A program made the position numbers and the translations under genes. A DNA stretch of 64,000 nucleotides, taken from the NCBI RefSeq assembly GCF_000226295.1, contig NC_016025.1:124001-188000 (forward strand), given 5' to 3'. The notes below the pieces were generated by a model that saw only the letters and a list, made by a program, of their open reading frames with translations, did not search any database and was not told the origin of the DNA. Origin of the DNA: Chloracidobacterium thermophilum B. GTDB lineage: Bacteria > Acidobacteriota > Blastocatellia > Chloracidobacteriales > Chloracidobacteriaceae. Each line of letters begins with the position of its first letter. Position 1 is the first letter of the stretch. Shown here in pieces: positions 6,887-48,862 of this stretch.

Positions 6887-6900
6887 AGCCTGGAACGCAT

Positions 6901-7891: not shown

Positions 7892-7902
7892 ACGGTCTCC
7901 AC

Positions 7903-9237: not shown

Positions 9238-9265
9238 ACACAAGGCTCCTTCCGGAAGAGGATGG

Positions 9266-11035: not shown

Positions 11036-11152
11036 GTCTTGTCAAGCCGGCGCGTCATGCCGAAGAAATGCACGCCGGCTGTGGTGAAGGGAGTTGTCAC
11101 TGTCTGTCAGGACACGTTAGCGAATTCGAATCCCCGTGGCCAACATCATTCT
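11023..11152. repeat. Direct repeat copy 1: symporter 5' end and leader, with a hairpin
   Basis: About 130 bp running from the first codons of the symporter outward is closely repeated, in the same orientation, at 13594-13724. Shared landmarks are GAACGTCAG, TGTCAAGCCGGCGCGTC, GCACGCCGGCTGTG and CACGTTAGCG. It contains an 8-bp stem AGCCGGCG/CGCCGGCT (11045-11052 with 11073-11080). The rest of 11153-11461 shows no gene I can support. Confidence 0.75.
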
Positions 11153-13193: not shown

Positions 13194-13291
13194 GCAGGGG
13201 AGTATGTCAACCAACAGGAGTGCAGGTCGTAGCTTCCCTTCTGCCAGATCAGCTTGTGGAAAACGAAAGACAACAACCTGCCCCGCTTTTT

Positions 13292-13504
13292 TCATACAAA
13301 ACTTACCTTGATGTCTGCCGTGCTGTATAACGCAGGCTCATCCTCCATATCCCGCACGGCTGAAGATAACGACAAAGCTCCCCACTCCTGCTTTTCCTGC
13401 TGCTCTGCCTTGACAAGAAGATACTGGATAAAGCTAAGCAACTCTTCCTGGAGTGACCGGGGAAGTTTTTGCACGGATTGGAAAACTTTTTCATCGAATG
13501 CCAT
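13292..13504 (-). CDS. Antitoxin-like protein, DUF2281-type
   Basis: The protein has 70 residues: MAFDEKVFQSVQKLPRSLQE, then ELLSFIQYLLVKAEQQ and an acidic/hydrophobic tail. This is the pattern of small DUF2281-like proteins, a helical N-terminus followed by a short C-terminal extension, which commonly sit directly upstream of toxin genes. A strong AGGAG lies 8 bp before the ATG. Its TGA overlaps the ATG of the disrupted MazF/PemK-like toxin at 13295, the classical antitoxin-toxin arrangement. The antitoxin is intact while the toxin is split, so it no longer has a functional partner in cis. Confidence 0.7.
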   Translation of the reverse strand: MAFDEKVFQSVQKLPRSLQEELLSFIQYLLVKAEQQEKQEWGALSLSSAVRDMEDEPALYSTADIKVSFV

Positions 13505-13593
13505 GATCTGTTCTCCTGTAAATAAAGGGAATGTTTCCTTTGAACTGTTTTATACCAAAGCCTCTGGGTAGCGTAGGTGGGGATTAACTGGGT

Positions 13594-13724
13594 CAAACGT
13601 CAGACATGTCCTGTCAAACCGGCGCGTCAGGCCGAAAAAACGCACGCCGGCTGTGGGTGAATGGAGTTGCTACTGTTGGTCGGCACACGTTAGCGGATTC
13701 AGTCCCAGCGGCCAACAGCCATTT
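13594..13724. repeat. Direct repeat copy 2 of the symporter leader
   Basis: It matches 11023-11152 over about 130 bp with scattered differences (landmarks AACGTCAG, ACCGGCGCGTC, GCACGCCGGCTGTG, CACGTTAGCG). The two copies bracket the toxin-antitoxin/IS island. The remaining 13505-13593 and 13725-13801 contain no gene I can support. Confidence 0.75.
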
Positions 13725-13801
13725 TCGTTGTTGTTACGTGGAGGGACGCGGTAAGCTCAGCGGTCACATGACATTTTCCAACGACAGGGACGGTTCGAGA
13801 C

Positions 13802-14563
13802 GTGGTACTGGATTTGTTTCGTCTGGATGGGAAGGTCGCGCTGGTGACGGGTGCGCTTTCCGAGATTGGGACGGCCATTGCGCTGGCTCTGGCCGAAGCC
13901 GGCGCCGATGTTGCCTGTCATGGTTCAGCCCGTGCCCCGGAAGCCCTCTGTGAGCAGATTCGGGCGCTGGGCCGGCGGGCGCTGGCCGTGACGGGAGACC
14001 TCTACGACCGCGCCTTTCACCGTCATATCGTGGCCACGACCCTCGCCCATTTCGGGCGGATTGATATTCTGGTCAACAATGCCAGCACAATCCGGCGCGG
14101 CGCTGCCGTGGAACTGAGCGACGAAGACTGGGATTTCATCTTGGGCATCAACCTGACAACGGTGTTCCGGCTGTCGCAGATGGTGGCCAAGGACATGCTC
14201 GAACGGCGGTCAGGCAAGATTATCAACATTGCTTCCCTGCTGGCCTTTCAGGGCGGCTGGCAGGCTCCGGCATTTGCGGCCTCGAAGGGCGGCGTCGTGC
14301 AACTGACGAAATCCCTGGCCAACGAATGGGCTTCCCGGGGCGTCAACGTCAACGCCATTTCGCCGGGTTATCTGGAAGTCGAAAGCACCCGTCCGCTGCG
14401 GGAGGACCCCGTGCGTCACCGCCAGATCACGGAGCGCATTCCGGCCGAGCGATGGGGGCAGCCGTCCGATCTGGCCGGCGCAGCGGTGTTTCTGGCCTCA
14501 GCGGCCAGTGATTACGTCCACGGCCACGTGCTCGTCGTGGATGGCGGTTGGATGGGGCGCTAG
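13802..14563 (+). CDS. KduD/FabG-like SDR protein lacking the catalytic tyrosine
   Basis: The protein has 253 residues from a GTG start. Overall it follows 2-deoxy-D-gluconate 3-dehydrogenase/FabG: LFRLDGKVALVTGA, ILVNNASTIRRG, GKIINIASLLAFQGG, SLANEWASRGVNVNAISPGY and a C-terminal VDGGWMGR. Two key positions are altered. The glycine-rich loop reads TGALSEIG where TGxxxGxG is expected. The catalytic YxxxK reads FAASK, a Tyr-to-Phe change by one base (TTT). The Ser and Lys of the active site remain. It may be a non-catalytic homologue, or a gene losing function. The stop codon overlaps the proB stop by four bases on the other strand. Confidence 0.75.
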   Translation: MVLDLFRLDGKVALVTGALSEIGTAIALALAEAGADVACHGSARAPEALCEQIRALGRRALAVTGDLYDRAFHRHIVATTLAHFGRIDILVNNASTIRRGAAVELSDEDWDFILGINLTTVFRLSQMVAKDMLERRSGKIINIASLLAFQGGWQAPAFAASKGGVVQLTKSLANEWASRGVNVNAISPGYLEVESTRPLREDPVRHRQITERIPAERWGQPSDLAGAAVFLASAASDYVHGHVLVVDGGWMGR

Positions 14564-34131: not shown

Positions 34132-34258
34132 CGGATAGGGAAGTAGCTGTCTGTGAGAAGCAACTTGGGGCTGAGAAGGCGGAAGTCTAATCGGTTGCTC
34201 TCACGTCGGCTAGTCCGACTGGCCGTAAGTCCCTTGGGAGCGCGGGCAGCTCTGGGGG

Positions 34259-34277: not shown

Positions 34278-34366
34278 TGGGCTTCAGGGTTGCGCGCTCT
34301 CTCAAGCATCCCGGCAGTTCAGTTGGTACGCACAATGCTGCTGCCGCCGGATACCAGTCGTCTCTC

Positions 34367-35695
34367 TCACCTGTCGTTGGCTTTGATTTTTGCTGCTCGC
34401 GCTTCAAGTTCTTCGGCTTCGGTAGTCCGCTGCGTCGCACGATAAAGCAGAGCCAGGTTTTTGAGGACCGTCGCTACATCGGGATGGTTGGGACCCAGGG
34501 CCTTCTCCCGGATAGCCAGCGCACGCTTGATGAGCGGCTCGGCCTGGGCGTACTGACCTTGGGCCCGATAGATGCAAGCCAGGTTGTTCAGGCTTTGCGC
34601 CACAGCGGGATGGTCGGAACCCAAGGCCTTTTCCCGGATAGCCAGCGCACGCTTGATGAGCGGCTCGGCTTGGGCGTACTGCTCTTGGGCCAGATAGACA
34701 ACAGCCAGGTTGTTCAGGCTCTGGGCCACAGCGGGATGGTCGGGACCCAAGGCCTTCTCCTCGATAGCCAGCGCGCGCTTGAGGAGCGACTCGGCCTGAG
34801 CGTGGTGATCCTGGGCCTGGTAAAGCAAGGCCAGGTTGTTCAGGCTCTGGGCCACAGCGGGATGGTCAGGACCCAAGACCTTCTCCCGGATGGCCAGCGC
34901 ACGCTTGAAGAGCGGTTCTGCCTGGGCGTACTGACCTTGGTTGGTGTAGAGCATGGCCAGCTTGTCCAAGCTCGCCGCCACATCGGGATGATTGGGTCCC
35001 AAGGTCTGCTCCCCGATAGCCAGCGCGCGCTTGAGGAGCGGCTCGGCCTGGGCATATCGTCCTTGATTGGTGTAGAGCATGGCCAGCTTGTCCAAGCTCG
35101 CCGCCACATCGGGATGGTTGGGTCCCAAGGTCTGCTCCTCGATAGCCAGCGCGCGCTTGAGGAGCGGCTCGGACTGGGCATACTGCCCTTGATTGGTGTA
35201 GAGCAGGGCTAGGTTGTACAGGCTCGCCGCCACATCGGGATGGTCGGGACCCAGGGCCTTCTCCCAGATAGCCAGCGCGCGCTTGAAGAGCGGCTCGGCC
35301 TGAGTGTACTGCCCTTGGGCTAGATAGATACCAGCCAGGGTGTTCAGGTTCTGCGCCACAGCGGGATGGTCGGGGCCGACAGACTTCTTCAGGATGACCA
35401 GCGCACGCTTGGAGAGCGGTTCCGCTTGGGCGTACTGACCTTGGTTAGCATAGAACAGAACCAGGATGTTCAGGCTTGCCGCCACAGCGGGATGGTTTGG
35501 TCCGAAGCTCTGCTTGGCAAACTCCAGCGCCTGTTTCGCAACCACAACGGCATGGTCATGTTTGCCAGCCTGAAAAAGCTCCGTGGCCTCCTGGTGGAGC
35601 TCCCTCAACTTTCTGCCTGCGCACTGGGCATAGGCTATTGTGCCCGTCAGGCACAGCACGGCAGCCAGAGCTATCACCTGTATCCGTTTGAGCAT
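34367..35695 (-). CDS. Secreted kinesin-light-chain-type TPR protein, copy 1
   Basis: The protein has 442 residues. The start at 35695 has GAGGAG upstream. The signal peptide is MLKRIQVIALAAVLCLTGTI ending at AYAQ, so the protein is exported. About nine 42-residue TPR units follow, with the consensus QYAQAEPLFKRALAIREKAL then GPDHPDVAQSLNNLA, the class found in kinesin light chains. A short conserved C-terminal cap reads TEAEELEARAAKIKAND. Function is unknown; such arrays bind peptides or proteins. The 126-bp DNA units are strongly alike, as in its paralogues at 37009, 37899, 40284 and 43201. A repeat module with a hemN fragment precedes it. Confidence 0.8.
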   Translation of the reverse strand: MLKRIQVIALAAVLCLTGTIAYAQCAGRKLRELHQEATELFQAGKHDHAVVVAKQALEFAKQSFGPNHPAVAASLNILVLFYANQGQYAQAEPLSKRALVILKKSVGPDHPAVAQNLNTLAGIYLAQGQYTQAEPLFKRALAIWEKALGPDHPDVAASLYNLALLYTNQGQYAQSEPLLKRALAIEEQTLGPNHPDVAASLDKLAMLYTNQGRYAQAEPLLKRALAIGEQTLGPNHPDVAASLDKLAMLYTNQGQYAQAEPLFKRALAIREKVLGPDHPAVAQSLNNLALLYQAQDHHAQAESLLKRALAIEEKALGPDHPAVAQSLNNLAVVYLAQEQYAQAEPLIKRALAIREKALGSDHPAVAQSLNNLACIYRAQGQYAQAEPLIKRALAIREKALGPNHPDVATVLKNLALLYRATQRTTEAEELEARAAKIKANDR

Positions 35696-35831
35696 AGGTG
35701 CTCCTCACAGACACCCAACCACTTTATCGCTGGCCGGTTGCCTTATCATGGTTTAGGGTTTTGTGACATTTAGAACTATTTTTTTCGGGTTGTAAACAGA
35801 TTTCTGGTGCAGGCTGTCCGGGGGAATGGGG

Positions 35832-36000
35832 GATAGTGAGTAGTGAATGGTGAGTGGCGAGTGGGGAATAGCGAGTAGCGAGTAGGTGAAGTGGAGGATG
35901 TTTTGTGAGAGTTGCTCCGAAGCAGGCAAGGCACTTGGCGTTGGTGTGTGAAGTCGGGCGAATCGCCTCCTGCTAGCTGACTGTCCGCACTCAGCCGGTG
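35832..36000. repeat. Spacer module: heptamer array, tail and hemN fragment 1
   Basis: 35832-35888 carries 7-bp units (GCGAGTA, GTGAGTG, GGGAATA and similar). A tail of about 70 bp follows (landmarks GATGTTTTG, TTGCTCCGAAGCAGG). 35960-36000 matches the part of hemN at 47740-47782 that encodes RLSADDQRRREAIR in the intact gene; here it would read RKHRLSADSQ on the minus strand. Confidence 0.75.
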
Positions 36001-36100
36001 TTTGCGGATAGTCGTGTTGCCGGCGAAAATGACACCCGAATAACAATCCGGGTAGCTTTGGCGGCTACGACAGAACAAGCCCACCAACAAGGAGAACGAC
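36001..36100 (+). promoter_or_regulatory. Conserved leader of the toxin-antitoxin cassettes, copy 1
   Basis: About 100 bp are nearly identical to 42160-42264 and 46795-46904 (landmarks GTGTTTGCGGATA, CGAAAATGACACC, CAAGCCCACCAAC) and end in AAGGAGAACGAC before the ATG. It presumably carries the promoter and operator. It is shared although the antitoxin behind it differs from the other two. Confidence 0.65.
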
Positions 36101-36331
36101 ATGAACCCCCTCAGTATTCAGGAAGCTCAAGCATGCCTGGCAGACCTCATTCACCGCCTGTCCCCTGGTGAGGAAGTGATTCTCACAGAAAACGGTCAGC
36201 CTGTCGCCAGACTGGTTGCTACCTGCACACCACCACCGCGCCCGGTCCCGAAGCTTGGCACGCAACGCGGTTCGGTATTGTCAATGGAGCACTTTGACGA
36301 TCCGCTGGAAGAGTTTGAGGAATACCAGTGA
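36101..36331 (+). CDS. Phd/YefM-like antitoxin, copy 1
   Basis: The protein has 76 residues. The N-terminal DNA-binding region reads MNPLSIQEAQACLADLIHRL with PGEEVILTENGQPVARLVA, the beta strand motif of the Phd/YefM fold. The C-terminal acidic tail MEHFDDPLEEFEEYQ would wrap the toxin. Its stop overlaps the PIN toxin start (ATGA). It differs clearly from the two nearly identical antitoxins at 42265 and 46905 although the leader is shared. Autoregulation through the leader is expected. Confidence 0.85.
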   Translation: MNPLSIQEAQACLADLIHRLSPGEEVILTENGQPVARLVATCTPPPRPVPKLGTQRGSVLSMEHFDDPLEEFEEYQ

Positions 36332-36720
36332 TGCGGTTACTGCTTGACTCCCACGCTCTGATCTGGAGCCAGGACGACATCAGTCAGTTGTCGCCAGTTG
36401 CACTTGCCGCCCTTTCAGACCCAGCCAATGACCGCCTCATCAGTGTAGCAACCGTCTGGGAAATCGCCATCAAGGTTGGCAAGAAGCGGCTTCCCTTATC
36501 GAAGCCGTTCCGGCAATGGATGGAGATCGCCATTGCTGATCTCTACCTGACGCTGCTGCCAATCACCCTGGACCATACTGACCGGCAGTTGGCATTGCCG
36601 CCCCATCATGGTGATCCTTTCGACCGCTTGCTGATTTCACAGTCCCTTGTTGAGGGCATACCGATTGTCGGGAGCGATACGCAATTTGACGCCTATGGTG
36701 TAACCCGTATCTGGGACTGA
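36328..36720 (+). CDS. PIN-domain toxin (VapC-like), copy 1
   Basis: The protein has 130 residues. Acidic active-site residues are visible in MRLLLDSHALIW, VATVWEIAIKVG and HGDPFDRLLISQSL, matching the PIN-domain RNase pattern. It starts inside the antitoxin stop. The C-terminal VGSDTQFDAYGVTRIWD is shared with the other PIN copies at 42507 and 47147. It presumably cleaves RNA (often tRNA) when released from the antitoxin. All key acids are present, so it appears intact. Confidence 0.87.
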   Translation: MMRLLLDSHALIWSQDDISQLSPVALAALSDPANDRLISVATVWEIAIKVGKKRLPLSKPFRQWMEIAIADLYLTLLPITLDHTDRQLALPPHHGDPFDRLLISQSLVEGIPIVGSDTQFDAYGVTRIWD

Positions 36721-36723
36721 GGA

Positions 36724-36995
36724 ATGGGGGTGAGTGGCGAGTAGCGAGTGGTGAGTAGCGAGTGGGAGATGTTTTGAGGGTTGCTCTGAAGCAGGTGTGG
36801 GGAAGTGGTGTTCTGGTGCGTGAAGCTGAATGAATCGTCTCCGGCTGCGCAGATCGTTTGCACTCAGCCGGTGTTTGCGGATAGTGGCGCAGGTTTGCCG
36901 GGCAGGTCCGTACACCAGTCCCGTAACCAGTCGAGGTTGATGCTTTCTAAGCTGCCCCTCCCGACAAGCGGCACACACCGCCTTTGCGACGGAAC
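36724..36995. repeat. Spacer module: heptamers, tail, hemN fragments 1 and 2
   Basis: 36730-36765 is a heptamer array. A tail follows, then fragment 1 at about 36831-36875. Fragment 2, at about 36880-36995, corresponds to hemN 48205-48292 (minus-strand reading with YAACR, LPRQTRAT counterparts: CAACREG, ARQTCAT). In hemN these two pieces are about 420 bp apart; here they are joined. Confidence 0.8.
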
Positions 36996-37008
36996 TCAGC
37001 CGTTTCTC

Positions 37009-37707
37009 TCACTTGTTGTTGGCCTTGATTTTTGCAGCCCGCTCTTCAAGTTTCTCCGCTTCAGCAATCCGCCTGGTCAGGCGACAGAGTAAGGCCAAGT
37101 TTTCAAGGCTCGTTGCCACATCGGGATGGTTGGGACCCAGAACCTTCTCCCTGATAGCCAGTGAGCGCCTGAAGAGTGGCTCCGCCTGGGCGTACTGACC
37201 CTGGATATCGTAGAGCCTGCCCAGGTTATTCAGGATCATCGCCACAACGGAATAATCGGGGTCTGTAGCCTTTTCCGTGATGGTCAGCGCGCGTTTGTAG
37301 AGCGGCTCAGCTTGGGCGTACTGCCCTTGAGCTTGATAGAGACCCGCCAGGTTGTTCAGGCCCGTCGCCACATCGGGATGGTCGGGACCCAGGGTTTTTT
37401 CCAGGATGTCCAGCGCGCGCTTGAAGAGTGGCTCCGCCTGGGTGTACTGCCCTTGGGCCTGATGGGACTTGGCCAGGTGGTTCAGGCTTGTCGCCACATC
37501 GGGATGGTTCAGCCCGACGCGCTTCTCGGCCACCTCCAGCGCCTTTTTCGCCACGGTAGCAGCGCGGTCATATCTGCCAGCCCGATAAAGCGTCCGCACT
37601 TCCTCGATGAGTGTTTCCCACTCGATGCCCGCACCTTGGGCATAAGCCGGCCCGCCGGTCAGGCACAGCACGGCCGCCAGAGCCATCACCTGCACCAGAT
37701 TGATCAT
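37009..37707 (-). CDS. Secreted kinesin-light-chain-type TPR protein, copy 2 (short)
   Basis: 232 residues from the ATG at 37707, chosen because MINLVQVMALAAVLCLTGGP with AYAQ is the signal peptide shared by the family; the longer frame upstream is non-coding. Only four 42-residue units are present (for example QYTQAEPLFKRALDILEKTL), followed by the usual cap IAEAEKLEERAAKIKANNK. The low unit number next to a 14-unit paralogue suggests gain and loss of whole 126-bp units. This gene lacks a heptamer array directly upstream, unlike the others. Confidence 0.8.
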   Translation of the reverse strand: MINLVQVMALAAVLCLTGGPAYAQGAGIEWETLIEEVRTLYRAGRYDRAATVAKKALEVAEKRVGLNHPDVATSLNHLAKSHQAQGQYTQAEPLFKRALDILEKTLGPDHPDVATGLNNLAGLYQAQGQYAQAEPLYKRALTITEKATDPDYSVVAMILNNLGRLYDIQGQYAQAEPLFRRSLAIREKVLGPNHPDVATSLENLALLCRLTRRIAEAEKLEERAAKIKANNK

Positions 37708-37796
37708 TGGTATTCCGCGCAGACACCTAACCATTTGTCGGTGGAAAATGGAGAATGAAAAATGAGCGAAAGTGAGGGATATCCTGCGGGTTGCTT

Positions 37797-37890
37797 CACT
37801 TGGCCGTTGACGTGACACCATTCGGGGTTGACGCCTTCAAAGCTGGACGCCTAGCAAGCCACACAAACTGTCTTGGCGACAGGATTCAAC
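37797..37890. repeat. Decayed hemN fragment 2
   Basis: Partial similarity to hemN 48230-48290 (GGGTTGACGCCTTCAAAGC, then GCAAGCCACACAAACTGTCTT) between TPR copies 2 and 3. Fragment 1 and the heptamers are missing here, so this is the most eroded copy. Confidence 0.55.
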
Positions 37891-37898
37891 TGTTTCTC

Positions 37899-39857
37899 TC
37901 ACTTGTCGCCAGCCTTGATTTTTGCCGCCCGCTCCTCAAGCTGCTCCGCTTCGGCAATCCGTTTGGTCGCACGATAGAGTTGAGCCAGGTTTCTGAGGGC
38001 TGTCGCCACGTCGGGATGGTTTGGACCCAGGGACTTTTCCCGGATGGCCAGCACCCGCCTGAAGAACGGCTCGGCTTGGGCGTACTGCCCTTGGGCTTTA
38101 TAGATGATGGCCAGGTTGTTCAGGCTTGTCGCCACATCGGGATGGTCAGGTCCTAAGACCTTCTCCCTGATAGCCAGCGTGCGTTTGTGGAGTGACTCTG
38201 CTTGTGCGTACTGCCCTTGAGCTTGATAGAGACCTGCCAGGTTGTTCAGACCCGCCGCCACATCGGGATGGTTTGGACCCAAGGACTTCTCCCGGATGAC
38301 CAGCGCGCGCCTGAAGAGCGGCTCGGCCTGGGCGTACTGCCCTTGGGTTTGATAGAGACCAGCCAGGTTGTTCAGGCTCGTCGCCACATCGGGATGGTTG
38401 GGGCCCAGGGCCTTCTCCCGGATGTCCAGCGCACGCCTGAAGAGCGGCTCGGCCTCGGCATACTGCCCTTGGGCTTGATAGAGACCAGCCAGGTTGTTCA
38501 GGCTCGTCGCCACATCGGGATGGTTGGAGCCCAAGGCCTTCTCCCGGATAGCCAGCGCACGCCTGAAGAGCGGCTCGGCCTGGGCGTACTGCCCTTGGGC
38601 TTGATAGAGACCAGCCAGGTTGTTCAGGCTCGTCGCCACATCGGGATGGTTGGGGCCCAAGGCCTTCTCCCGGATAGCCAGCGCACGCTTGAAGAGCGGC
38701 TCGGCCTGGGCGTACTGACCCTGGGCCTCGTAGAGCAGGGCCAGGTTGTTCAGGTTTGTCGCCACGTCGGGATGGTCGGAGCCCAAAGCCTTCTCCCGAA
38801 TGGTCAGTGCACGCTTGAAGAGCGGCTCGGCCTGGGCGTACTGACCCTGTGCCTGGTAGAGCGCCGCCAAGTTGTTCAGGCTCTGCGCCACGTCGGGATG
38901 GTCGGGACCCAAGACATTTTCCTGGATAGCCAGCGCACGCTTGAAGAGCGGCTCGGCCTGGGCGTACTGCCCTTGGGCTTTATAGATGATAGCCAGGTTG
39001 TTGAGGCTCGTTGCTACATCAGGATGGTCGGCGCCCAGGAACCTCTCCAGGATGCCCAGCGAGTGCTTGAGGAATGGCTCAGCTAGGTCGTACCGACCCT
39101 GTTCACGATAGATTTCAGCCAGGTTGTTCAGGGTCGTGGCCATATCGGGATGGTCAAGACCCAAGACATTTTGCTGGATGCCCATCGCGCGTTTGTAGAG
39201 CGGCTCAGCTTGGGCATACTGCCCTTGGGCTTTATAGATTTCAGCCAGGTTGTTCAGGATCGCCACCACATCGAGATGGTATGAGCCCAGGGCCTTCTCC
39301 CGGATGTCCAGCGCACGCTTGTAAAGCGGCTCGGCCTGGGCGTACTGCCCTTGGGCTTGATGGAGACCAGCCAGGTTGTTCAGGCTTGTCGCCACATCGG
39401 GATGGTCAGAACCCAAGGCCTTTTCCCGGATAGCCAGCGCGCGCCTGAAGAGCGGCTCGGCCTGGGCGTACTGCCCTTGGGCTTGATAGAGACCAGCCAG
39501 GTTGTTCAGGCTCGTCGCCACATCGGGATGGTCGGGGCCCAAGGCCTTCTCCTGTATAGCCAGCGCGCGCCTGAAGAGCGGCTCGGCCTGAGCGTACTGC
39601 CCTTGGGCATTATAGAGATAGGCCAGGTTGGTCAGGCTTTTCGCCACATTGGGATGCTCTGTCCCGACGCGCTTCTCAGCCACCTCCAGCGCCTTTTTGG
39701 CAACCACGATGGCGCGGTCATATTTACCGGCCTGATAAAGCTTTATGACTTCCTGGTTGAGTGTCTCCCACTCGCGGCCTGCACCTTGGGCGTAAGCCAT
39801 AGCGCCAGTCAGGTACAGCATAACAACCAGAGCTATCACTTGTCTCCATTTGACCAT
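37899..39857 (-). CDS. Secreted kinesin-light-chain-type TPR protein, copy 3 (14 units)
   Basis: The protein has 652 residues. The signal peptide is MVKWRQVIALVVMLYLTGAM, ending AYAQ. Fourteen 42-residue units follow; most carry QYAQAEPLFRRALAIREKAL and GPNHPDVATSLNNLAGLYQA almost unchanged, and units 8-12 are nearly identical at DNA level. Units 4-6 are more divergent (LGSYHLDVVA, LGLDHPDMAT). The cap is RIAEAEQLEERAAKIKAGDK. AAGGAGCACCT precedes the ATG. The periplasmic or secreted location is inferred from the signal; partners are unknown. Confidence 0.82.
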   Translation of the reverse strand: MVKWRQVIALVVMLYLTGAMAYAQGAGREWETLNQEVIKLYQAGKYDRAIVVAKKALEVAEKRVGTEHPNVAKSLTNLAYLYNAQGQYAQAEPLFRRALAIQEKALGPDHPDVATSLNNLAGLYQAQGQYAQAEPLFRRALAIREKALGSDHPDVATSLNNLAGLHQAQGQYAQAEPLYKRALDIREKALGSYHLDVVAILNNLAEIYKAQGQYAQAEPLYKRAMGIQQNVLGLDHPDMATTLNNLAEIYREQGRYDLAEPFLKHSLGILERFLGADHPDVATSLNNLAIIYKAQGQYAQAEPLFKRALAIQENVLGPDHPDVAQSLNNLAALYQAQGQYAQAEPLFKRALTIREKALGSDHPDVATNLNNLALLYEAQGQYAQAEPLFKRALAIREKALGPNHPDVATSLNNLAGLYQAQGQYAQAEPLFRRALAIREKALGSNHPDVATSLNNLAGLYQAQGQYAEAEPLFRRALDIREKALGPNHPDVATSLNNLAGLYQTQGQYAQAEPLFRRALVIREKSLGPNHPDVAAGLNNLAGLYQAQGQYAQAESLHKRTLAIREKVLGPDHPDVATSLNNLAIIYKAQGQYAQAEPFFRRVLAIREKSLGPNHPDVATALRNLAQLYRATKRIAEAEQLEERAAKIKAGDK

Positions 39858-39963
39858 AGGTGCTCCTTGCAGACACCCAACCGCTTATCGCCGGCTTGGT
39901 TGCCTTATCACAGTTATGGTTTGTGACGTTTAGAATCGTTTTTTCGGATTGTAAACAGGTTTA

Positions 39964-40283
39964 TGGCGAGTGGTGAGCAGCAAATAGCAAATAGCGAATA
40001 GCGAATAGCGAGTAGCGAGTGGTGAATGGCGAGTGGTGAGTAGCGAGTGGCGAGTAGGTGGAAGTGGGGGATGTTTTGGGGGGTGCTCTGAGGCAGGCAA
40101 AGCCGTTGTTGTGAAGCCGAACGGATTGTCTCCCGCCGTCGCTGGTCGTCCGCACTCAGCCGGTGTTTGCGGATAGTGGTACGGGTTTGCCGGGGTAGTC
40201 CCGTACGCCAGTCCCGTAGCCAGTCGGGGCTGATGCTTCCAAACGCTGCCTCCCGGCAAGCGGCATAACCTGCCTTTGTCACT
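39964..40283. repeat. Spacer module: heptamers, tail, hemN fragments 1 and 2 (best preserved)
   Basis: Heptamers occupy 39964-40059, with GCGAATA and GCAAATA variants in the first half. The tail is 40060-40120. Fragments 1 and 2 follow at about 40122-40283, reading on the minus strand MTKAGYAACREAAFGSI, LPRQTRTTIRKHRLSADDQ and RRRETIR, against LTKAVYAACRDVGFESI, LPRQTRAT and HRLSADDQRRREAIR in the intact HemN. The module begins one base after the TPR copy 4 stop codon. Confidence 0.85.
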
Positions 40284-41858
40284 TCATCTATATGTGGACC
40301 TGATTCTCACAGCCCGCTCTTCGAGCTTCTCCACTTCGATAATCTGCCCCTTCGCAGGGACAAGATAGAATCTGACCGGCAATCTAAGGCTATTCCCTAT
40401 GAAAATGGAGTCCCAAGTTTTCCTCTCAATGTCCATCCAGCGGTGGAAGAGGGAATCCGACTGGTTGAACTGAAACTGCAAAAGGTAAACTTGGGACAAA
40501 TTGTATGCCGTCGCTCCCACATCGGGATGGTTGGGTCCAAGGGTCTTTTCCCTGATGGTCAACGCGCGCCTGTAAAGCGGTTTCGCTTGGGCATACTTCC
40601 TCTGAGCATGATAAAGCGTGGCCAGGTTGTGCATGGTCGCTGCTACATCGGGATGTTCAGGCCCTAGGGCCTTTTCCCGGATAGCCAGCGCACGTTTGAA
40701 AAGCAGCTCCGCCTGGGCATACTGACGCTGTTCATAGTAGAGCAGAGCCAAGCTGTTGAGGCTCTTCGCCACATCGGGATGGCCGGGGTCCAGGGTCTTC
40801 TCCCTGATGTCCAGCGCGTGCTGGTAAAGCGGCTCCGCTTGGGCGTACGCATGCTGGTCATAGAAAAACACAGCCATGTTGTTCAGGATCACTGCCACAT
40901 CAGGATGGGCAAGTCCCAGGGACTTCTCCATGATGGCCAGCGAGCGATTGTAGAGTGGCACCGCCTGGGTATACATTGCAGCTTCGTGATAAAAGACAGC
41001 CAGGTTGTTCACGATTATTGCCACATCGGGATGGTCGGAACCCAGGGACTTCTCCATGATGGCCAGCGCGCGCTCGCAGAGCGGTGCTCCCTGGGAGTAC
41101 TGACACTGGCCATAGTGGAGCAAGGCCAGGTTATTCAGGCTTTTCGCCACATCGGGATGGTTGGAACCTAGGGCCTTCTCCAAAATGGCCTGCGTACGTT
41201 TGAGGAGCGGCTCGGCCTGGGCGTACTGACCTTGGGCATAGTAGAGCAGGGCCAGGTTGTTCAGGCTCGTTGCCACGTCAGGATGGTCGGGACCCAAGAC
41301 TTTCTCCCGGATGGTTAGCGCACGCCCACAGAGCAGTTCCGCTTGGGCGTACTGCCCTTTGTCTTGATAGAGTTCAGCCAGGTTATGCAGGCTCGTTGCC
41401 ACATCAGGATGGTTAGGGCCTAAGGACTTCTCCCCGATAGCCAGCGCGCGTTTGAGGAGCGGCTCCGCTTGAGCGTATTGACCCTGGTTTTTGTAGAGCA
41501 CGGCCAGGTTGTTCACGCTTTGCGCCACACTGGGATGGTCGGGACCCAAGGCATTCTCCCGAATGGTCAGTGCGCGTCTGTGGAGCGGCTCCGCTTGAGC
41601 GTATTGTCTCTGTTCGCGATAGATTTCAGCCAGGATGTTCAGGGTTGTCGCCACATTGGGATGGTCCGGCCCGACGCTCTTCTCAGCAACCTCCAGCGCC
41701 TTTTTGGCAACCGTGATGGCACGTTCATATTTGCCAGCCCGATAAAGCTCCGTTGCATCTCGGTTGAGTGTCTCCCAATTGTTGCTTTGGGTGCAGGCTG
41801 TGGCGCCAGCCAGGCACAACACGGCAGCCAGAACCATTACCTGTATCCGTTTGGTCAT
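40284..41858 (-). CDS. Secreted kinesin-light-chain-type TPR protein, copy 4 (divergent)
   Basis: 524 residues from the ATG at 41858 (MTKRIQVMVLAAVLCLAGAT), with a GAGGAGCACCT site. Ten 42-residue units can be counted, less uniform than in the paralogues, with variants such as MYTQAVPLYNRSLAIMEKSL. The C-terminus departs from the family: a degenerate eleventh unit with FNQSDSLFHRWMDIERKTW and about 35 residues with no repeat, then VEKLEERAVRIRSTYR. The signal region ends TACTQ, so a lipoprotein is conceivable although the lipobox is poor. Confidence 0.8.
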   Translation of the reverse strand: MTKRIQVMVLAAVLCLAGATACTQSNNWETLNRDATELYRAGKYERAITVAKKALEVAEKSVGPDHPNVATTLNILAEIYREQRQYAQAEPLHRRALTIRENALGPDHPSVAQSVNNLAVLYKNQGQYAQAEPLLKRALAIGEKSLGPNHPDVATSLHNLAELYQDKGQYAQAELLCGRALTIREKVLGPDHPDVATSLNNLALLYYAQGQYAQAEPLLKRTQAILEKALGSNHPDVAKSLNNLALLHYGQCQYSQGAPLCERALAIMEKSLGSDHPDVAIIVNNLAVFYHEAAMYTQAVPLYNRSLAIMEKSLGLAHPDVAVILNNMAVFFYDQHAYAQAEPLYQHALDIREKTLDPGHPDVAKSLNSLALLYYEQRQYAQAELLFKRALAIREKALGPEHPDVAATMHNLATLYHAQRKYAQAKPLYRRALTIREKTLGPNHPDVGATAYNLSQVYLLQFQFNQSDSLFHRWMDIERKTWDSIFIGNSLRLPVRFYLVPAKGQIIEVEKLEERAVRIRSTYR

Positions 41859-41968
41859 AGGTGCTCCTCGCAGACACCCAACCACTTTGTTGCGGGGTGG
41901 TTGCCTTGTTGCTGTTTAGTGTTTTTTTGATATTTAGAAGCATTTTTTTCAGGTTGTAAACAGGTTTG

Positions 41969-42160
41969 TAGCGAGTGGCGAGCAGCAAATAGCAAATAGC
42001 GAATAGCGAATAGCGAATAGCGAGTAGCGAGTGGTGAGTAGCGAGTGGCGAGTAGGTGGAAGTGGGGGATGTTTTGGGGGGTGCTCTGAGGCAGGCAAAG
42101 CCGTTGTTGTGAAGCCGAACGGATTGTCTCCCGCCGTCGCTGGTCGTCCGCACTCAGCCG
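41969..42160. repeat. Spacer module: heptamers, tail and hemN fragment 1
   Basis: Heptamers at 41969-42058 start with GCGAGTG and contain four GCGAATA-type units, closely matching 39964-40059. The tail and fragment 1 (to about 42160) are almost identical to 40060-40165. Fragment 2 is absent; the toxin-antitoxin leader follows instead. Confidence 0.82.
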
Positions 42161-42264
42161 GTGTTTGCGGATAATCGTGTAGCCAGCGAAAATGACACCC
42201 GAAAACAATCCGGGTAGCTCTGGCGGCTACACGACGGAACAAGCCCACCAACGAGGAGAACGAC
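42160..42264 (+). promoter_or_regulatory. Conserved leader of the toxin-antitoxin cassettes, copy 2
   Basis: It matches 36001-36100 and 46795-46904 closely, ending GAGGAGAACGAC before the antitoxin ATG. An imperfect inverted pair, CCGGGTAGC with GGCGGCTACACG, may be part of an operator. It holds no coding sequence. Confidence 0.6.
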
Positions 42265-42510
42265 ATGACCGAAACGATTGCCCGCACGTTTCCGGTGACG
42301 GCCGTCCAGTCCAAATTGCCTGAACTTCTGGCTGGAATGGCTGGCGGCGAGGAGTTGATCCTGACGGCTGATGGTGTACCTGTCGCCGTCATCAAGCGCT
42401 TGGAGCGCACGAGTTGGCCAAGTGTTCCTGGCACAGCCAAGGACCGCTCGTTCTGGATGTCCCCCGATTTCGACGCCCCACTTGAAGACTTCGCGGAATA
42501 TATGGAATGA
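42265..42510 (+). CDS. Phd/YefM-like antitoxin, copy 2
   Basis: The protein has 81 residues: MTETIARTFPVTAVQSKLPE, then LLAGMAGGEELILTADGVPV and AVIKRLERT, the Phd/YefM DNA-binding fold. The acidic C-terminal toxin-binding tail is PDFDAPLEDFAEYME. It is identical to the copy at 46905 except for one Ser/Pro difference near residue 68. Its stop overlaps the PIN toxin ATG. Confidence 0.87.
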   Translation: MTETIARTFPVTAVQSKLPELLAGMAGGEELILTADGVPVAVIKRLERTSWPSVPGTAKDRSFWMSPDFDAPLEDFAEYME

Positions 42511-42896
42511 AGTTGTTACTTGATACGCATACGGTGCTGTGGTTCTGGTGGGATGACCCGCAACTGGGGGCAACGGCCAAAGCTGCAATCTGCAATCCGG
42601 CGAACCAGAAGTTCGTCAGCCTTGTCTCGCCGTGGGAAGTCGCTATCAAGGTCAGCCTGAAAAAGCTCGACATCGGCGGATCGTACGCCGGATTCTTCCG
42701 CCAGCACATGCTGCGCACGTACTTTGAGTGGTTGCCATTCCGCGATGACCACTTCAACTGCCTGACCACGCTGCCATTCCACCACCGCGATCCATTTGAC
42801 CGGATGTTGGTTGCTCAGTCGCTGATCGAGGGCATGCCGCTCCTCAGCGCCGACACGATTTTCGACACTTACGGCGTAAACCGCATCTGGGACTGA
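42507..42896 (+). CDS. PIN-domain toxin (VapC-like), copy 2
   Basis: The protein has 129 residues. The active-site acids are in MKLLLDTHTVLWFW, VSPWEVAIKVSL and HHRDPFDRMLVAQSL. It ends SADTIFDTYGVNRIWD. It appears complete. Bases 42511-42750 of this gene are exactly what is missing from the otherwise similar copy at 47147. A heptamer array starts 9 bp after its stop. Confidence 0.88.
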   Translation: MKLLLDTHTVLWFWWDDPQLGATAKAAICNPANQKFVSLVSPWEVAIKVSLKKLDIGGSYAGFFRQHMLRTYFEWLPFRDDHFNCLTTLPFHHRDPFDRMLVAQSLIEGMPLLSADTIFDTYGVNRIWD

Positions 42897-42904
42897 GGAA
42901 TGGG

Positions 42905-43192
42905 TGTGAGTAGCGAGTGGCGAGTAGCGAGTGGTGGGTAGCGAATGGCGAGTGGCGAGTGGGAGATGTTTTGGGAGTTGCTCCGAGCAGGCGTGGGGAG
43001 TGGTTGTTCTGACGTGTGAAGCTGAATGAATCGCCTCCTGCCGTCGCTGCTTGTCCACACTTAGTCAGTGTTTGCGGATGGTGGCGCAGGTTTGCCGGGG
43101 TAAGCCCGTAACCGGTTCTGTAACCAGTCGTGATGCTTTCAAAGCTGGCTTCCCGGCAAACCGCATAAACTGCCTTTGCGATGGAATTCAAC
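42905..43192. repeat. Spacer module: heptamers, tail, hemN fragments 1 and 2
   Basis: Heptamers 42905-42963, tail to about 43025, then hemN fragments 1 and 2 to 43192 (minus-strand AKAVYAVCREASFESI against TKAVYAACRDVGFESI in HemN). It ends a few bases from the TPR copy 5 stop. Confidence 0.8.
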
Positions 43193-43200
43193 CGTTTCTC

Positions 43201-46200
43201 TCACTTGTCGTTGGCCTTGATTTTTGCTGCCCGCTCCTCAAGCTGCTCCGCCTCGGTAATCCGCTGCGTCGCACGATAGAGTAGCGCCAGGTTTCTGAGG
43301 CTCGTCGCCACATCAGGATGGTTGGGTCCCAATGCCTTCTCCCGGATAACCAGTGAACGCCTGTAGAGCGGCTCGGCTTGGGCATACTGCCCTTGGGCAT
43401 AGTAGAGCCGGGCCAGATTGTGCAGGCTCTGCGCAACAGCGGGATGGTCGGAACCCAGGGCCTTCTCCCGGATGGCCAGCGCCCGCCTGAAGAGCGGCTC
43501 CGCCGTGGCATACTGCTCCTGGTCTTGATAGATACCAGCCAGGTTGTGCAGGCTCGCCGCCACATCGGGATGGTCAGGGCCTAGAGCCTTCTCTCTGATA
43601 GTCAGTGAACGCCTGAAGAGGGACTCCGCTTGGGCGTACTGACCCTGTTTGGCATAGAGCATGGCCAGGTTGTTCAGGCTCGTCGCCACATTGGGATGGT
43701 CGGAGCCCAAAGACTTCTCCTTGACGGTCAGCGCACGCCTGTAGAGCGTCTCCGCTTGGGCATACTGACCTTGGTCCTGATAGATACCAGCCAGGTTGTG
43801 CAGGACTGTCGCCACCGCAGGATGGTCGGGTCCCAAGGCCTTCTCCCAGATGGCCAGAGTGCGCTTGTAGAGAGGTTCTGCTTGGGTGTACTGACCTTGG
43901 TCGGCGTAGAGCAGGGCCAGGTTGTTCAGGCTCAGCGCTACATCGGGATGGTCAGTCCCCAAGGTCTTCTCTTGTATGGCCAACGCGCGCTTGAAGAGCG
44001 GCTCCGCTTGGGCGTACTGACCCTGTTCTCGATAGAGGTCAGCCAAGTTGTTCAGGCTTGCCGCCACATTGGGATGGTCGGGTCCCAGGGCCTTTTCCCA
44101 GATGGCTAGAGCACGCCTGTAAAGCGGCTCCGCCTGGGCGTACCGACTCTGTCCTCGATAGATTTCAGCCAGGTTGCTCAGGTTCGTCGCTACGTCGGGA
44201 TGGTCGGGTCCCAGGGTTTTCTCCCTGATGGCCAATGTGCGCCTGTAAAGTGGCTCGGCCTGGGCGTACTGCCCTTGGGCTTGGTAGAATCCAGCCAGGT
44301 TGTGCAGACTCGCCGCCACATCGGGATGGTCAGGTCCTAAGGCCTTCTCCAAGATAGCCAGCGCGCGCCTGTGGAGCGGCTCCGCCTGGGTGTACTGACC
44401 CTGCTTGGTGTAGAACAGAGCCAGGTTGTTCAGGCTCTCCGCCACATCGGGATGGTCGGATCCCAAGGCTTTCTCCCGAATAGCCAGCGCGCGCTTGTAG
44501 ATCGGCTCTGCTTGGGCGTACTGCCCTTGGGCACGGTAGAGTCCAGCCAGGCTGCTCAGGCTCGCTGCCACATCGGGATGGTCGGGACCCAGGGCCTTCT
44601 CCAAGATAGCCAGCGCGCGCCTGTGGAGCGGCTCCGCTTGGGCGTACTGACCTTGGTCTCGATAGACGGCAGCCAGGTTGTTCAGGCTCGCCGCCACATC
44701 GGGATGGTCAGGACCCAGGGCCTGCTCCCTGATGACCAATGAGCGTTTGTAGAGCAGCTCGGCCTGGGCGTACTGCCCTTGGGCACGGTAGAGTCCAGCC
44801 AGGTTGTTCAGGCTCATCGCCACAACCGGATGGTCGGGACCCAGGGCCTTCTCCATGATGGCTAGCGCACGCCTGTAGAGTGGTTCTGCCTGGGTGTACT
44901 GACCTTGCTTGGCGTAGAGCAGAGCCAGGCAGCTCAGGCTCGTTGCCACATCGGGATGGTCGGGGCCCAGGGCTTTCTCTCTGATGGCTAGCGTGCGCCT
45001 GTAGAGTGGCTCCGCCCGGGCATGCTGACCTTGGTCTATGTAGATACCAGCCAGGTTGCTCAAGATCGTTGCCACATCGGGATGGTCGGAGCCCAGAGTC
45101 TTCTCCATAGTAGCCAGCGTGCGCTTGAAGAGTGGCTCTGCCTGGGTGTACTGGCCCTGAACATAGTAGAGCGCGGCCAGGTTGTTCAGGCTCGTTGCCA
45201 CATCGGGATGGTCAGGGCCCAGAGCCTTTTCCATAATGGCTAGTGAGCGCTTGAGGAGCGGCTCCGCCTGGGCGTACTGACCTTGGGCATGGTAGAGCGC
45301 GGCCAGGTTGCTCAGGCTCGTTGCCACATCGGGATGGTCAGGGCCCAGCACCTTCTCCTGAATGGACAGCGCGCGTTTGTGGAGTGGCTCTGCTTGATCG
45401 TACCGCCCCTGGTTGGCATAAATCATGGCCAGATTGTTCAGGCTCTGCGCCACATCAGGATGGTCTGCCCCCAAGGCCTTTTCCGTGATGACCAGCGCGC
45501 GCTTGAAGAGTGGCTCCGCTTGGGCATACAGACCTTGGTCACAGTAGAGTGTGGCCAGGTTGTTCAGGCTGGTCGCCACATCAGGATGGTCGGTACCAAG
45601 TACCTTCTCCCTAATAAACAGTGCGCGCCTGTGGAGTGGCTCAGCCTGGGCGTGCTGGCCTTGGTTTTGATAGATACCAGCCAAGTTGTTCAGGCTGGTC
45701 GCCACATCAGGATGGTCGGTGCCCAAGGCCTTTTCCCGAATAGTCAGCGCGCGCTTGTAAAGTGGCTCGGCCTGGGCGTACTGACCTTGGGCATCGTAGA
45801 GCAGGGCCAGGTTGTTCAGGTTTGTCGCCACATCGGAATGGTCGGGGCCGAGGGCCTTCTCCCGGATGGTCAGCGCGCGCCTGTAGAGCGGCTCGGCCTG
45901 GGCATACTGCCCTTGGGCTTGATAGAGATCAGCCAGGTTGTTCAGGCTCTGCGCCACATCGGGATGGTTCGGGGCCCAAGGCCTTCTCCTGTATAGCCAG
46001 CGCACGCATGAGGAGCGGCTCGGCCTAGGCGTACTGGCCTTGGTTTTTGTAGAGCACGGCCAAGTTGTTCAGGTTTGTCGCCACGTCGGGATGGTCGGGG
46101 CCCAAGGCCTTCTCCTGTATAGCCAGCGCGCGCCTGAAGAGCGGCTCGGCCTGAGCGTACTGCCCTTGGGCATTATAGAGATAAGCCAGGTTGTTCAGAC

Positions 46201-46420
46201 TTTTCGCCACATTGGGATGCTCCGGCCCGACGCTTTTCTCAGCTACCTCCAGCGCCTTTTTGGCAACCACGAGGGCCTGGTCATATTTACCGGCCCGATA
46301 AAGCTCCATTACCTCTCGGCTGAGTGTCTCCCACTCGCCACCTGCGCCTTGGGCGTAGGCCATCGCGCCGGTCAGGCACAATACGGCAGCCAGAGCCATC
46401 ACCTGTATCCGTTTGATCAT
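43201..46420 (-). pseudogene. Secreted kinesin-light-chain-type TPR gene, copy 5, broken by a stop codon and a frameshift
   Basis: The gene starts at 46420 (MIKRIQVMALAAVLCLTGAM, ending AYAQ) with GAGGAG upstream and encodes a signal peptide plus three TPR units. It then meets TAG at 46025-46027, where every other unit has CAG (QYAQAEP). About 45 bp further on, one extra base in GGGCCCCGAACC shifts the frame. From there 22 further 42-residue units are intact down to 43201 with the family cap. The reconstructed protein would have about 1070 residues and some 25 units, the longest of the five. Only the first 131 residues could be made from the normal start. Confidence 0.8.
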
Positions 46421-46530
46421 TATGTTCTCCTCGCCGCATCCAACCACTTCAGCACCGACTGGTTGCCTTATCACGTTTCAGGTTTTGTGACATTTAGATA
46501 GAAGCAATTTTTTTCGGGTTGTGCAGGTTT

Positions 46531-46794
46531 ATAGTGAATGGCGAATGGCGAGTGGCGAGTAGCGAGTGGTAGGGGCGGGTTCCGAACCCGCCCCGGAACC
46601 ACCCGGCATCCAGCGTTTCGCACCCTCGGGAGTAGCGAGTGGTAGTACGGGCGGGTTCCGAACCCGCCCGTACGGGCGAGTGGCGAGTAGGTGGAAGTGG
46701 GGGATGTTTTGAGGGGTGCTCTGAAGCAGGCAAGGCACTTGGCGTTAGTGTGTGAAGCCGAGCGAATCACCTCCCGCTCACTGACTGTCCGCAC
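46531..46794. repeat. Spacer module: interrupted heptamers, two palindromes, tail, hemN fragment 1
   Basis: Heptamer units at 46531-46571, 46630-46645 and 46676-46690 are separated by two insertions carrying GC-rich palindromes: 46572-46594 (GGGGCGGGTTC/GAACCCGCCCC) and 46645-46673 (14-bp arms, one central base). Tail and hemN fragment 1 follow to about 46794. Confidence 0.8.
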
Positions 46795-46904
46795 TCAGCC
46801 GGTGTTTGCGGATAGTCGTGTTGCCGGCGAAAATGACACCTGAATAACAATCCAGGTAGCTTTGGCGGCTACGACAGAACAAGCCCACCAACAAGGAGAA
46901 CAAC
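46795..46904 (+). promoter_or_regulatory. Conserved leader of the toxin-antitoxin cassettes, copy 3
   Basis: It matches 36001-36100 almost base for base (CGAAAATGACACCTGAATAA, TTTGGCGGCTACGACAGAAC) although the antitoxin downstream is of the copy-2 type. It ends AAGGAGAACAAC before the ATG. Confidence 0.62.
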
Positions 46905-47150
46905 ATGACCGAAACGATTGCCCGCACGTTTCCGGTGACGGCCGTCCAGTCCAAATTGCCTGAACTTCTGGCTGGAATGGCTGGCGGCGAGGAGTTGATC
47001 CTGACGGCTGATGGTGTACCTGTCGCCGTCATCAAGCGCTTGGAGCGCACGAGTTGGCCAAGTGTTCCCGGCACAGCCAAGGACCGCCCGTTCTGGATGT
47101 CCCCCGATTTCGATGCCCCACTCGAAGACTTCGCGGAATATATGGAATGA
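46905..47150 (+). CDS. Phd/YefM-like antitoxin, copy 3
   Basis: 81 residues, identical to the antitoxin at 42265 apart from Pro for Ser in DRPFWMSPDFD. It keeps the DNA-binding N-terminus and the acidic tail DAPLEDFAEYME, so it should still bind both operator and toxin. The toxin gene it overlaps is internally deleted, so this copy may act as an extra antitoxin for the toxin at 42507. Confidence 0.87.
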   Translation: MTETIARTFPVTAVQSKLPELLAGMAGGEELILTADGVPVAVIKRLERTSWPSVPGTAKDRPFWMSPDFDAPLEDFAEYME

Positions 47151-47296
47151 ACTTCGACTGCCTGACCGCGCTGCCATTTCACCACCGCGATCCATTTGAC
47201 CGGATGTTGGTTGCTCAGTCGCTGATCGAGGGCATGCCGCTCCTCAGCGCCGACACGATTTTCGACGCTTACGGCGTAAACCGCATCTGGGATTAG
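47147..47296 (+). pseudogene. PIN toxin with in-frame 240-bp deletion (C-terminal stub)
   Basis: It starts inside the antitoxin stop (ATGA) and reads MNFDCLTALPFHHRDPFDRM, ending SADTIFDAYGVNRIWD, 49 residues. Compared with 42507-42896, the segment equivalent to 42511-42750 (80 codons) is missing. That removes the N-terminal active-site Asp and the central Glu. The frame and the last acidic motif are preserved, so a stable peptide is possible but RNase activity is not. Confidence 0.82.
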
Positions 47297-47310
47297 TGGG
47301 GAATGAGGAA

Positions 47311-47519
47311 TGGCGGAATAGCGAGTGGCGAGTAGCGAGTGGTGAGTGGTGAGTGGCAATGAGCTTCTCTGTGCCGCCGATGGCCAGGACCTTCTCCGGG
47401 TTCCGGCTGCCGTCGTCAAATCGTCACGGAAACTCCAGTGGCGCAAACTGATGCTCCATTCGCCACTCGCCACTCGCTACCCACCACTCGCCACTCGCCA
47501 CTCACCACTCGCCACTCAC
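47311..47519. repeat. Two opposed heptamer arrays around about 100 bp, running into the hemN stop
   Basis: Forward units (GCGAGTG type) lie at 47311-47357 and complementary units (CCACTCG type) at about 47455-47519. The intervening 47358-47454 has no recognisable gene. The hemN stop codon (47516-47518) lies in the last repeat unit. Confidence 0.85.
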
Positions 47520-48862
47520 AGGGTCTTTGAGAAAACGGGGCGTGGCGCGTCGGTTTCCAGATAGGCGTCGAGCGTCATGCAGATGTTGCGCACGAAGGGG
47601 CGTCCCAGCGGTGTGACAACCAGGCGTCCGGCGTCAAAGCAGATAAGGCCGTCGGCTTCCATTTCACGGAAAGCCGCGCGCTGCCGCTCGAAGTCGTCCC
47701 GAAGAACGGCCACCGGAAGCTCCATGTGGCACATCAGGTAACGAATCGCCTCCCGCCGTCGCTGGTCGTCCGCACTCAGCCGATGGCCGCGCACGACAGG
47801 CAGCTCCCCGTGGTCAAGGGCCGTCTGGTAACGTCCCAGCCGGGCATCATTCTGGGCATAGAATCCTTCCAGTTCGCTGATGCCGCTCATCCCAAAGGCA
47901 ATGAGATTGGCCGCCGGACGCAGGGTGTAGCCCATGAAGTTGCGGTGGAGACGGCGCTCGTGGGACGCCACGGCCAGCTCATCGTCCTGGCGTGCAAAGT
48001 GATCCATGCCAATCCATACGTACTCGTGCGCCGTCAGCCGCTGGCGCGCATCGTCAAACATGGCAAAGCGAGTGATGACATCCGGCAGGTCTTCCACACG
48101 GATGTGCCGCTGGCGGGGACGAAGTTTCGGCATGTGGGCATAGTTGAACAGCGCCAGGCGGTCAGGGTGCAGCTCCAGAACGGACGCCACCGTATGCTCA
48201 AACGTGGCGCGGGTCTGCCGGGGTAGTCCGTACACCAGATCAAGGTTGATGCTTTCAAAGCCCACGTCCCGACAGGCGGCATAGACTGCCTTCGTGAGAG
48301 CTTCCGGCTGATGCCGGCCGATGGCCGCCTGTACCTCCGGGTGGAAATCCTGGACGCCCAGACTGATGCGCCGGAAACCCAGCGAGCGGATGTGCTTCAG
48401 TTGCGCCGGCGACGCAATACGCGGGTCAATCTCGATGGACATTTCCCCGTTCCAGTCCAGAACGAAGGCTTCTTCCAGCAGGCGTACGAGGCGCTCCATC
48501 TGCCGCGCCGTCAGCGTGTTGGGCGTACCGCCGCCCCAGTGCATCTGGACGACGCGCCGGCCGCGTCCGAGCTGTTCAACCACCAGCGCCACTTCCCGCG
48601 CCACCCGGTCGAGATAGGCATCCACAACTTCCGTTTTGCTGGTGACGGCGTTGTTGCAGCCACAGTAGTGGCACGCCATGGCACAAAACGGCAGGTGAAC
48701 GTAAAGACAAAGGTTTTGGGCGTCTGGCGTTTCCGAAAGCGCCTGAAGGGCCGCACGGTAATCCATCGCTCCAACCTGTTCACTCCACACCGGGACGGTC
48801 GGATAGCTCGTGTAGCGCGGCCCGGGACGGCTATATTTTTGCAACAGTTGGTCGATCCTCAT
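47516..48862 (-). CDS. hemN: Oxygen-independent coproporphyrinogen III oxidase
   Basis: 448 residues from the ATG at 48862 (MRIDQLLQKYSRPGPRYTSY), which overlaps bchE by 32 bp. The radical-SAM cluster is C60-xxx-C64-xx-C67 in YVHLPFCAMACHYCGCNN. HemN-specific features include HWGGGTPNTLT, VYGLPRQTRATFEH and YVWIGMDHFARQDDELA; these distinguish it from HemW. It converts coproporphyrinogen III to protoporphyrinogen IX without oxygen, upstream of both haem and bacteriochlorophyll. The C-terminus ends in a heptamer array (APRPVFSKTL then stop). This gene appears to be the parent of the fragments scattered through 35960-46794. Confidence 0.93.
   Translation of the reverse strand: MRIDQLLQKYSRPGPRYTSYPTVPVWSEQVGAMDYRAALQALSETPDAQNLCLYVHLPFCAMACHYCGCNNAVTSKTEVVDAYLDRVAREVALVVEQLGRGRRVVQMHWGGGTPNTLTARQMERLVRLLEEAFVLDWNGEMSIEIDPRIASPAQLKHIRSLGFRRISLGVQDFHPEVQAAIGRHQPEALTKAVYAACRDVGFESINLDLVYGLPRQTRATFEHTVASVLELHPDRLALFNYAHMPKLRPRQRHIRVEDLPDVITRFAMFDDARQRLTAHEYVWIGMDHFARQDDELAVASHERRLHRNFMGYTLRPAANLIAFGMSGISELEGFYAQNDARLGRYQTALDHGELPVVRGHRLSADDQRRREAIRYLMCHMELPVAVLRDDFERQRAAFREMEADGLICFDAGRLVVTPLGRPFVRNICMTLDAYLETDAPRPVFSKTL

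Follow-up and report, generated by a model that had tools for sequence, protein, structure and literature searches.

Locus and genomes compared

The window analysed here is a 64,000-nt stretch of the genome of the hot-spring bacterium Chloracidobacterium thermophilum B (positions 124001-188000 of contig C2, 1,012,010 bp; the genome comprises 3,695,372 bp in two contigs), and between metH and hemN it holds a block of ~13 kb that is made up of tetratricopeptide repeat (TPR) genes, heptamer arrays, toxin-antitoxin modules and scraps of hemN. According to PMC8245765, which describes nine axenic isolates, genomes of this genus consist of a chromosome of about 2.7 Mbp and one of about 1.0 Mbp. The intact hemN, a haem-synthesis gene, is an open reading frame of the radical SAM, HemN type on the minus strand (47516-48862; Pfam Radical_SAM E 9.5e-21), and its product also matches Pfam HemN_C below the cut-off (E 1.2e-4; 22.5 bits versus a cut-off of 24). 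We found that pieces of this gene recur in the spacers of the TPR cluster, and that a truncated hemN piece most likely arose once and then multiplied.

Read along the coding strand, the order of the block is hemN, a truncated copy of module 2, B46, T46, F43, module 2, B42 and T41, followed by F40, T39, F38, T37, F36, module 1, B36, T35 and metH, where T marks TPR genes and F and B mark hemN pieces. For comparison we used a set of seven genomes of the genus, namely the genome holding the window (G000) and G001-G006, among which G001 and G006 probably represent other species within the genus. Five of the six other genomes have a hemN orthologue (77-95% protein identity), and G002 yielded only a distant hemN relative and no orthologue.

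Pieces of hemN in the spacers of the TPR cluster

A blastn search with hemN (47516-48862) against 34300-47515 returned ten matches in the spacers at 69-91% identity, six of them to one short part of the gene (part 2, 47740-47785) and four to another (part 1, 48204-48297). All ten are co-oriented with hemN and lie between metH and hemN. Together they make up seven pieces on the minus strand. Three are fused pieces that contain both parts: F36 (36829-36989; part 2 at 36829-36873 and part 1 at 36884-36989, 36.8 and 65.4 bits), F40 (40120-40279; part 2 at 40120-40165 and part 1 at 40176-40279, two matches of 56.8 bits) and F43 (43025-43181; part 2 at 43025-43064 and part 1 at 43081-43181, 42.5 and 59.7 bits). 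Three consist of part 2 alone: B36 beside toxin-antitoxin module 1 (35959-36000; 39.7 bits), B42 beside module 2 (42118-42163; 56.8 bits), and B46 closest to the intact hemN (46763-46804; 39.7 bits). The seventh, F38, is a remnant of part 1 only (37815-37882; 31.1 bits), and the sequence here agrees with G001 without a difference over 183 nt. The sequence-only reading, made from the letters of this DNA, had counted seven spacers with hemN sequence; the number of pieces stands, and the spacers number five intergenic regions, in two of which (35.7-37.0 kb and 41.9-43.2 kb) a toxin-antitoxin module separates a pair of pieces.

Nine of the ten matches (36.8-65.4 bits) exceeded the best score from 500 dinucleotide shuffles of hemN (34.0 bits) with the TPR genes masked, the weakest of the nine clearing that maximum only narrowly, and reversed hemN as a control query gave a best match of E 0.39. 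The proposed presence of hemN pieces in these spacers is thus real and lies above chance. The tenth match, F38, was equalled by 8 of the 500 shuffles and is weak by itself; its similarity to F43 or to hemN part 1 was reached by none of 1000 mononucleotide shuffles, and the same count (0/1000) was obtained for the pieces near 35.98, 42.14 and 46.78 kb against hemN part 2. Weaker hemN matches within the TPR genes (best 34.0 bits, near 40778) are taken as chance. Neither the hemN sequence that separates the two parts nor the 3' 225 nt of the gene could be detected in the spacers (46/200 and 70/200 shuffles, respectively, scored as well).

DNA matches to the fragments were found at eight places in G000 and four in G001, all inside the block and thus in two of the seven genomes, and a DNA search of G000 and G001 with the fused piece and the tail behind it returned no match beyond the block. 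When pieces of other window genes were sought in the spacers, matches occurred only around 12877-13059, which is a heptamer array.

A common joint and a probable local source

Besides the three fused copies in the window, a fourth (G1_F) was found in G001. The gap between parts 1 and 2 is 10, 10 and 16 nt in the three window copies versus 418 nt in hemN, which amounts to a net loss of 408 nt in F40 and bears out the earlier observation that three window pieces are fused at the same point. In multiple alignments the joint is identical in all four fused copies, the filler ATCCGCAAA is present in all nine part-2 pieces of G000 and G001 (B36 among them), and part 1 of every fused copy has a common insert of about 11-12 nt, a length that is uncertain for F43 and the G001 copy, where pairwise alignments to hemN put the gaps elsewhere. 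The fused copies also have a common tail of ~55-60 nt behind part 2, in which no hemN similarity was found. This tail was recovered by DNA search at seven of the nine part-2 pieces (four in G000 and three in G001) and is recognisable in the multiple alignment at the other two.

When both parts of ten sequences were placed in an unrooted tree, with ultrafast bootstrap and FastTree supports, the four fused copies formed one clade (95; 0.997). This clade adjoins the hemN genes of G000 and G001, from which those of G003-G006 are set apart (100; 1.000), and the branching order of the G000 and G001 hemN near the fragments has low support (72; 0.490). Because all four fused copies have the same joint, including the copy from a second genome, a single origin of the joint is most likely, in agreement with the proposal of the sequence-only reading that a single deletion was followed by multiplication. 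As the filler occurs in every part-2 piece, the pieces beside the toxin-antitoxin modules are most likely of the same ancestor. The position of the clade in the tree points to the hemN of this lineage as the gene from which the fragments derive, and to a piece that probably predates the separation of G000 and G001; later exchange between the genomes may also have occurred. Positions 2395-4494 of G001 locus L027 are 98-100% identical to window positions 37500-39599, compared with 93% for hemN of the two genomes, and this high identity perhaps reflects recent exchange.

Genomes without the block and its order in G001

The block was found in G000 and G001 only. In G004, G005 and G006 metH adjoins hemN at a distance of about 200-240 bp, which represents the empty site, and in G003 the two genes are separated by a CRISPR-like array (L030, about 8900-14080), recognised from the repeat in its sequence. 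Counted from the hemN side, the G001 block holds the truncated module 2, two TPR genes of 2,056 and 244 aa without a spacer between them, the fused fragment, module 1, a part-2 piece, the counterparts of T39 and F38, and a last TPR gene that is chimeric, its metH-side end matching T35 (96%) and its other end T37 (99%). Since the order of elements differs between the two genomes and one TPR gene is a chimera, unequal recombination must have taken place in at least one of them. As far as the sequences tell, serial duplication alone is insufficient for the present order and recombination has also shaped the block. The spacers contain long repeats (483 bp at 92%), and in G000 there are exact repeats of 147 nt (40029-40175 and 42027-42173, common to F40 and B42, the latter match lying within it) and of 166 nt (42263-42428 and 46903-47068), whose lack of differences suggests recent exchange within G000.

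Window positions 34155-34240 (minus strand), upstream of metH, are conserved in all six genus genomes aligned and had no match in Rfam at E up to 1; this stretch is possibly an undescribed metH leader element.

TPR genes, heptamer arrays and toxin-antitoxin modules

The TPR genes are open reading frames on the minus strand. T35 (34367-35695; Pfam TPR_12) adjoins metH, T37 (37009-37821) contains 126-bp repeats, T39 (37899-39857) has a G001 orthologue of 97% identity, T41 (40284-41885) again matches Pfam TPR_12, and T46 (43201-46474) consists of two frames, 43201-46005 and 46025-46474. Where T46 is split at 46005-46025, G001 carries next to hemN the open TPR gene of 2,056 aa. Part 1 sits behind the 3' ends of T37, T39, T41 and T46, and no hemN piece was detected behind T35, the outermost gene before metH, where 59 of 200 shuffles scored as well against hemN as the 3' flank itself. 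Other places in G001 match short portions of a G+C-rich stretch at 46565-46680.

Two opposed heptamer arrays (47316-47515, inverted repeats) surround about 100 nt and end at the hemN stop codon. The ~100 nt between them (47358-47462) occur once in each of G000 and G001 and were found nowhere else, and an Rfam search (E up to 1) over the inverted heptamers gave three microRNA family matches that were rejected as far below the gathering scores. Arrays of the heptamer (GCGAGTR) are dispersed in both genomes, with 145 overlapping pattern matches in G000 and 132 in G001 at up to one mismatch, and the pattern had no match in the remaining five genomes of the genus that were searched. Each of the two genomes also has a cluster of seven such arrays, several of them opposed, at L047 in G000 (7500-12250) and at L053 in G001 (6480-11330). 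Cyanobacteria have short tandemly repeated heptamers; the arrays described here resemble them as dispersed arrays of a 7-bp unit found in some relatives only, a likeness of arrangement. Our literature search found no paper on Chloracidobacterium together with heptamers, nor one on short tandemly repeated heptanucleotides, and we make no wider claim on what is in print. The available text of PMC8245765 does not mention hemN, tetratricopeptide, toxin, pseudogene or any form of duplicat-, and has 'repeat' twice in an unrelated context; that of PMC12816986 contains no mention of repeat, hemN or TPR.

The toxin-antitoxin genes lie on the plus strand. Module 1 comprises a Phd/YefM-like antitoxin gene (36101-36331; Pfam PhdYeFM_antitox E 1.3e-5, 25.3 bits versus a cut-off of 29.8) and a PIN-domain toxin gene (36328-36720; Pfam PIN E 7.1e-9). 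Module 2 comprises a putative antitoxin gene (42266-42511), the product of which is 40% identical to the module 1 antitoxin by tblastn, and a PIN-domain toxin gene (42507-42896; Pfam PIN E 5.8e-9). A further copy of module 2 (46906-47293; tblastn) has a truncated toxin gene of which only residues 82-129 are matched, and the truncation is identical in G001. Like known Phd/YefM and PIN (VapC-like) modules, they have a PIN toxin above the Pfam cut-off preceded by an antitoxin-like gene; unlike them, the antitoxin match is below its cut-off and the toxin gene is truncated in one of the three modules. Elsewhere in G006 lies a DNA relative of module 2 that is 81% identical over most of the module and begins downstream of the hemN piece. 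These modules belong to the repeated unit. A strong hairpin was also observed between the part-2 piece and the antitoxin gene of module 2 (42175-42235), with counterparts near 36010-36075 and 46815-46880; the 42.2 kb copy, the only one folded, did so better than shuffles (z -4.30).

Origin of the hemN pieces

We consider it likely that the block grew by local duplication in which hemN pieces were carried along as passengers and then decayed, accompanied by duplication of the modules and by unequal recombination. In the ancestor of G000 and G001 a TPR gene would have arrived between metH and hemN, and a duplication would have copied a 3' part of hemN, beginning at about codon 186, to a site behind the 3' end of a TPR gene. 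This piece would then have lost about 408 nt internally together with its 3' end, gained the short insert, and been multiplied with the adjoining heptamer array and TPR gene; the toxin-antitoxin modules, which abut the same joint, would have been multiplied too. Recombination among the repeated spacers and the 126-bp TPR repeats would finally have altered the order and yielded the chimeric TPR gene. The presence of part 1 behind four TPR genes and its lack behind T35 is the expected remnant of duplicating a unit of hemN piece, heptamers and TPR gene. Legible in the sequences themselves are the common joint, the local hemN as nearest relative, occurrence in both genomes, degraded copies and differing orders; we infer a single tandem duplication as the first step and the order in which the later steps followed. 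Duplication of an intact hemN is itself a matter of inference, as no copy keeps more than a piece from near codon 186. Of the earlier proposal of repeated hemN-heptamer-TPR duplication with decaying hemN copies, the local source, the degradation and the direction of events are retained, and what falls away is serial duplication as the sole process and the omission of the modules.

Several observations weigh against this account. The supposed intermediate, with hemN, heptamers and one TPR gene, was found in none of the genomes, and the duplication breakpoint is not proven because the 3' flank of T35 has no significant match to that of T46 (317/1000 shuffles). The comparison of fragments with their neighbouring TPR genes, which the sequence-only reading had called for, was made with identity tables for the fragments and for the TPR ends, and these are only partly concordant: the 3' ends of T37 and its G001 counterpart are 92% identical while the fragments behind them (F36 and G1_F) are only 81% identical, below the 83% of G1_F and F40. 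Of three fragments folded, one did so better than shuffles (z -2.89). Finally, the changes common to the fragments favour third codon positions (3, 1 and 8 at positions 1, 2 and 3; Fisher p 0.019), which would not be expected of a piece that had been non-coding since its origin, unless the changes were in hemN itself.

This last excess may point to a diverged coding source or to changes in hemN itself. If the direct source was a second, diverged hemN in place of the local one, a paralogue or acquired allele that remained coding for a while before truncation, the common changes would be understandable next to the copy-specific ones, which fall at the three positions as 11, 21 and 25 (p 0.09 versus even). 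We nevertheless regard such a source as unlikely, given that the fragments are nearest to hemN of G000 and G001, that stem and tip show no significant difference in pattern (p 0.21, on few sites) and some common differences may be changes in hemN, and that the seven genomes hold no second close hemN, the others being 28-35% identical (the fragment itself aside). Retention for a function, as RNA structure, terminator or recombination substrate, would fit the constant position behind four TPR genes, the one well-folding fragment and the recombination that seems to occur between repeated spacers. It appears quite improbable to us when the other two fragments fold no better than shuffles (z 0.72 and 0.46), the region has as many terminator-like sites as shuffles have on average (13 versus 13.0), and the fused copies are 17-22% divergent among themselves, with indels in addition. 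We take the fragments to be passengers, probably without a function.

Spread by a mobile element is very improbable: the adjoining heptamer arrays are indeed dispersed in both genomes, but the fragments were found only in the block and in a single orientation, and in 12 regions around other heptamer loci no duplication of a gene fragment like that of hemN was recognised among the matches listed, the repeats there being unannotated. There is next to no chance that the similarity is accidental, F38 being the one match that shuffles could equal, or that hemN took its segments from an unrelated repeat, since hemN of G003-G006 contains both segments and the repeat was not found in those four genomes. 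Local duplication with passenger pieces could also be cast in a broader frame, that of a cassette-like locus diversifying exported-looking TPR proteins, in which the repeated spacers (hemN scraps, heptamers and modules) and in-register 126-bp repeats would keep recombining the genes, each species would have a different set and the toxin-antitoxin modules would stabilise the locus, an idea that we hold to be rather unlikely.

Implications

Tandem gene duplication can leave truncated, decaying gene copies at the borders of the duplicated units. The block resembles such cases in its local co-oriented copies, common junction, degraded passenger and different order in a related genome, and differs in that the passenger is a small, internally deleted piece that recurs next to toxin-antitoxin modules as well as between large TPR genes. 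Nothing here implies a new biochemical function. The junction of metH and hemN seems to take insertions, with the TPR block in two genomes and the CRISPR-like array in a third. This is genome evolution of an ordinary kind that can be read here with unusual clarity. The hemN scraps act as a natural barcode: their common joint and the changes that came after it help in placing the duplications in sequence, which would otherwise be difficult in a locus so rich in repeats.

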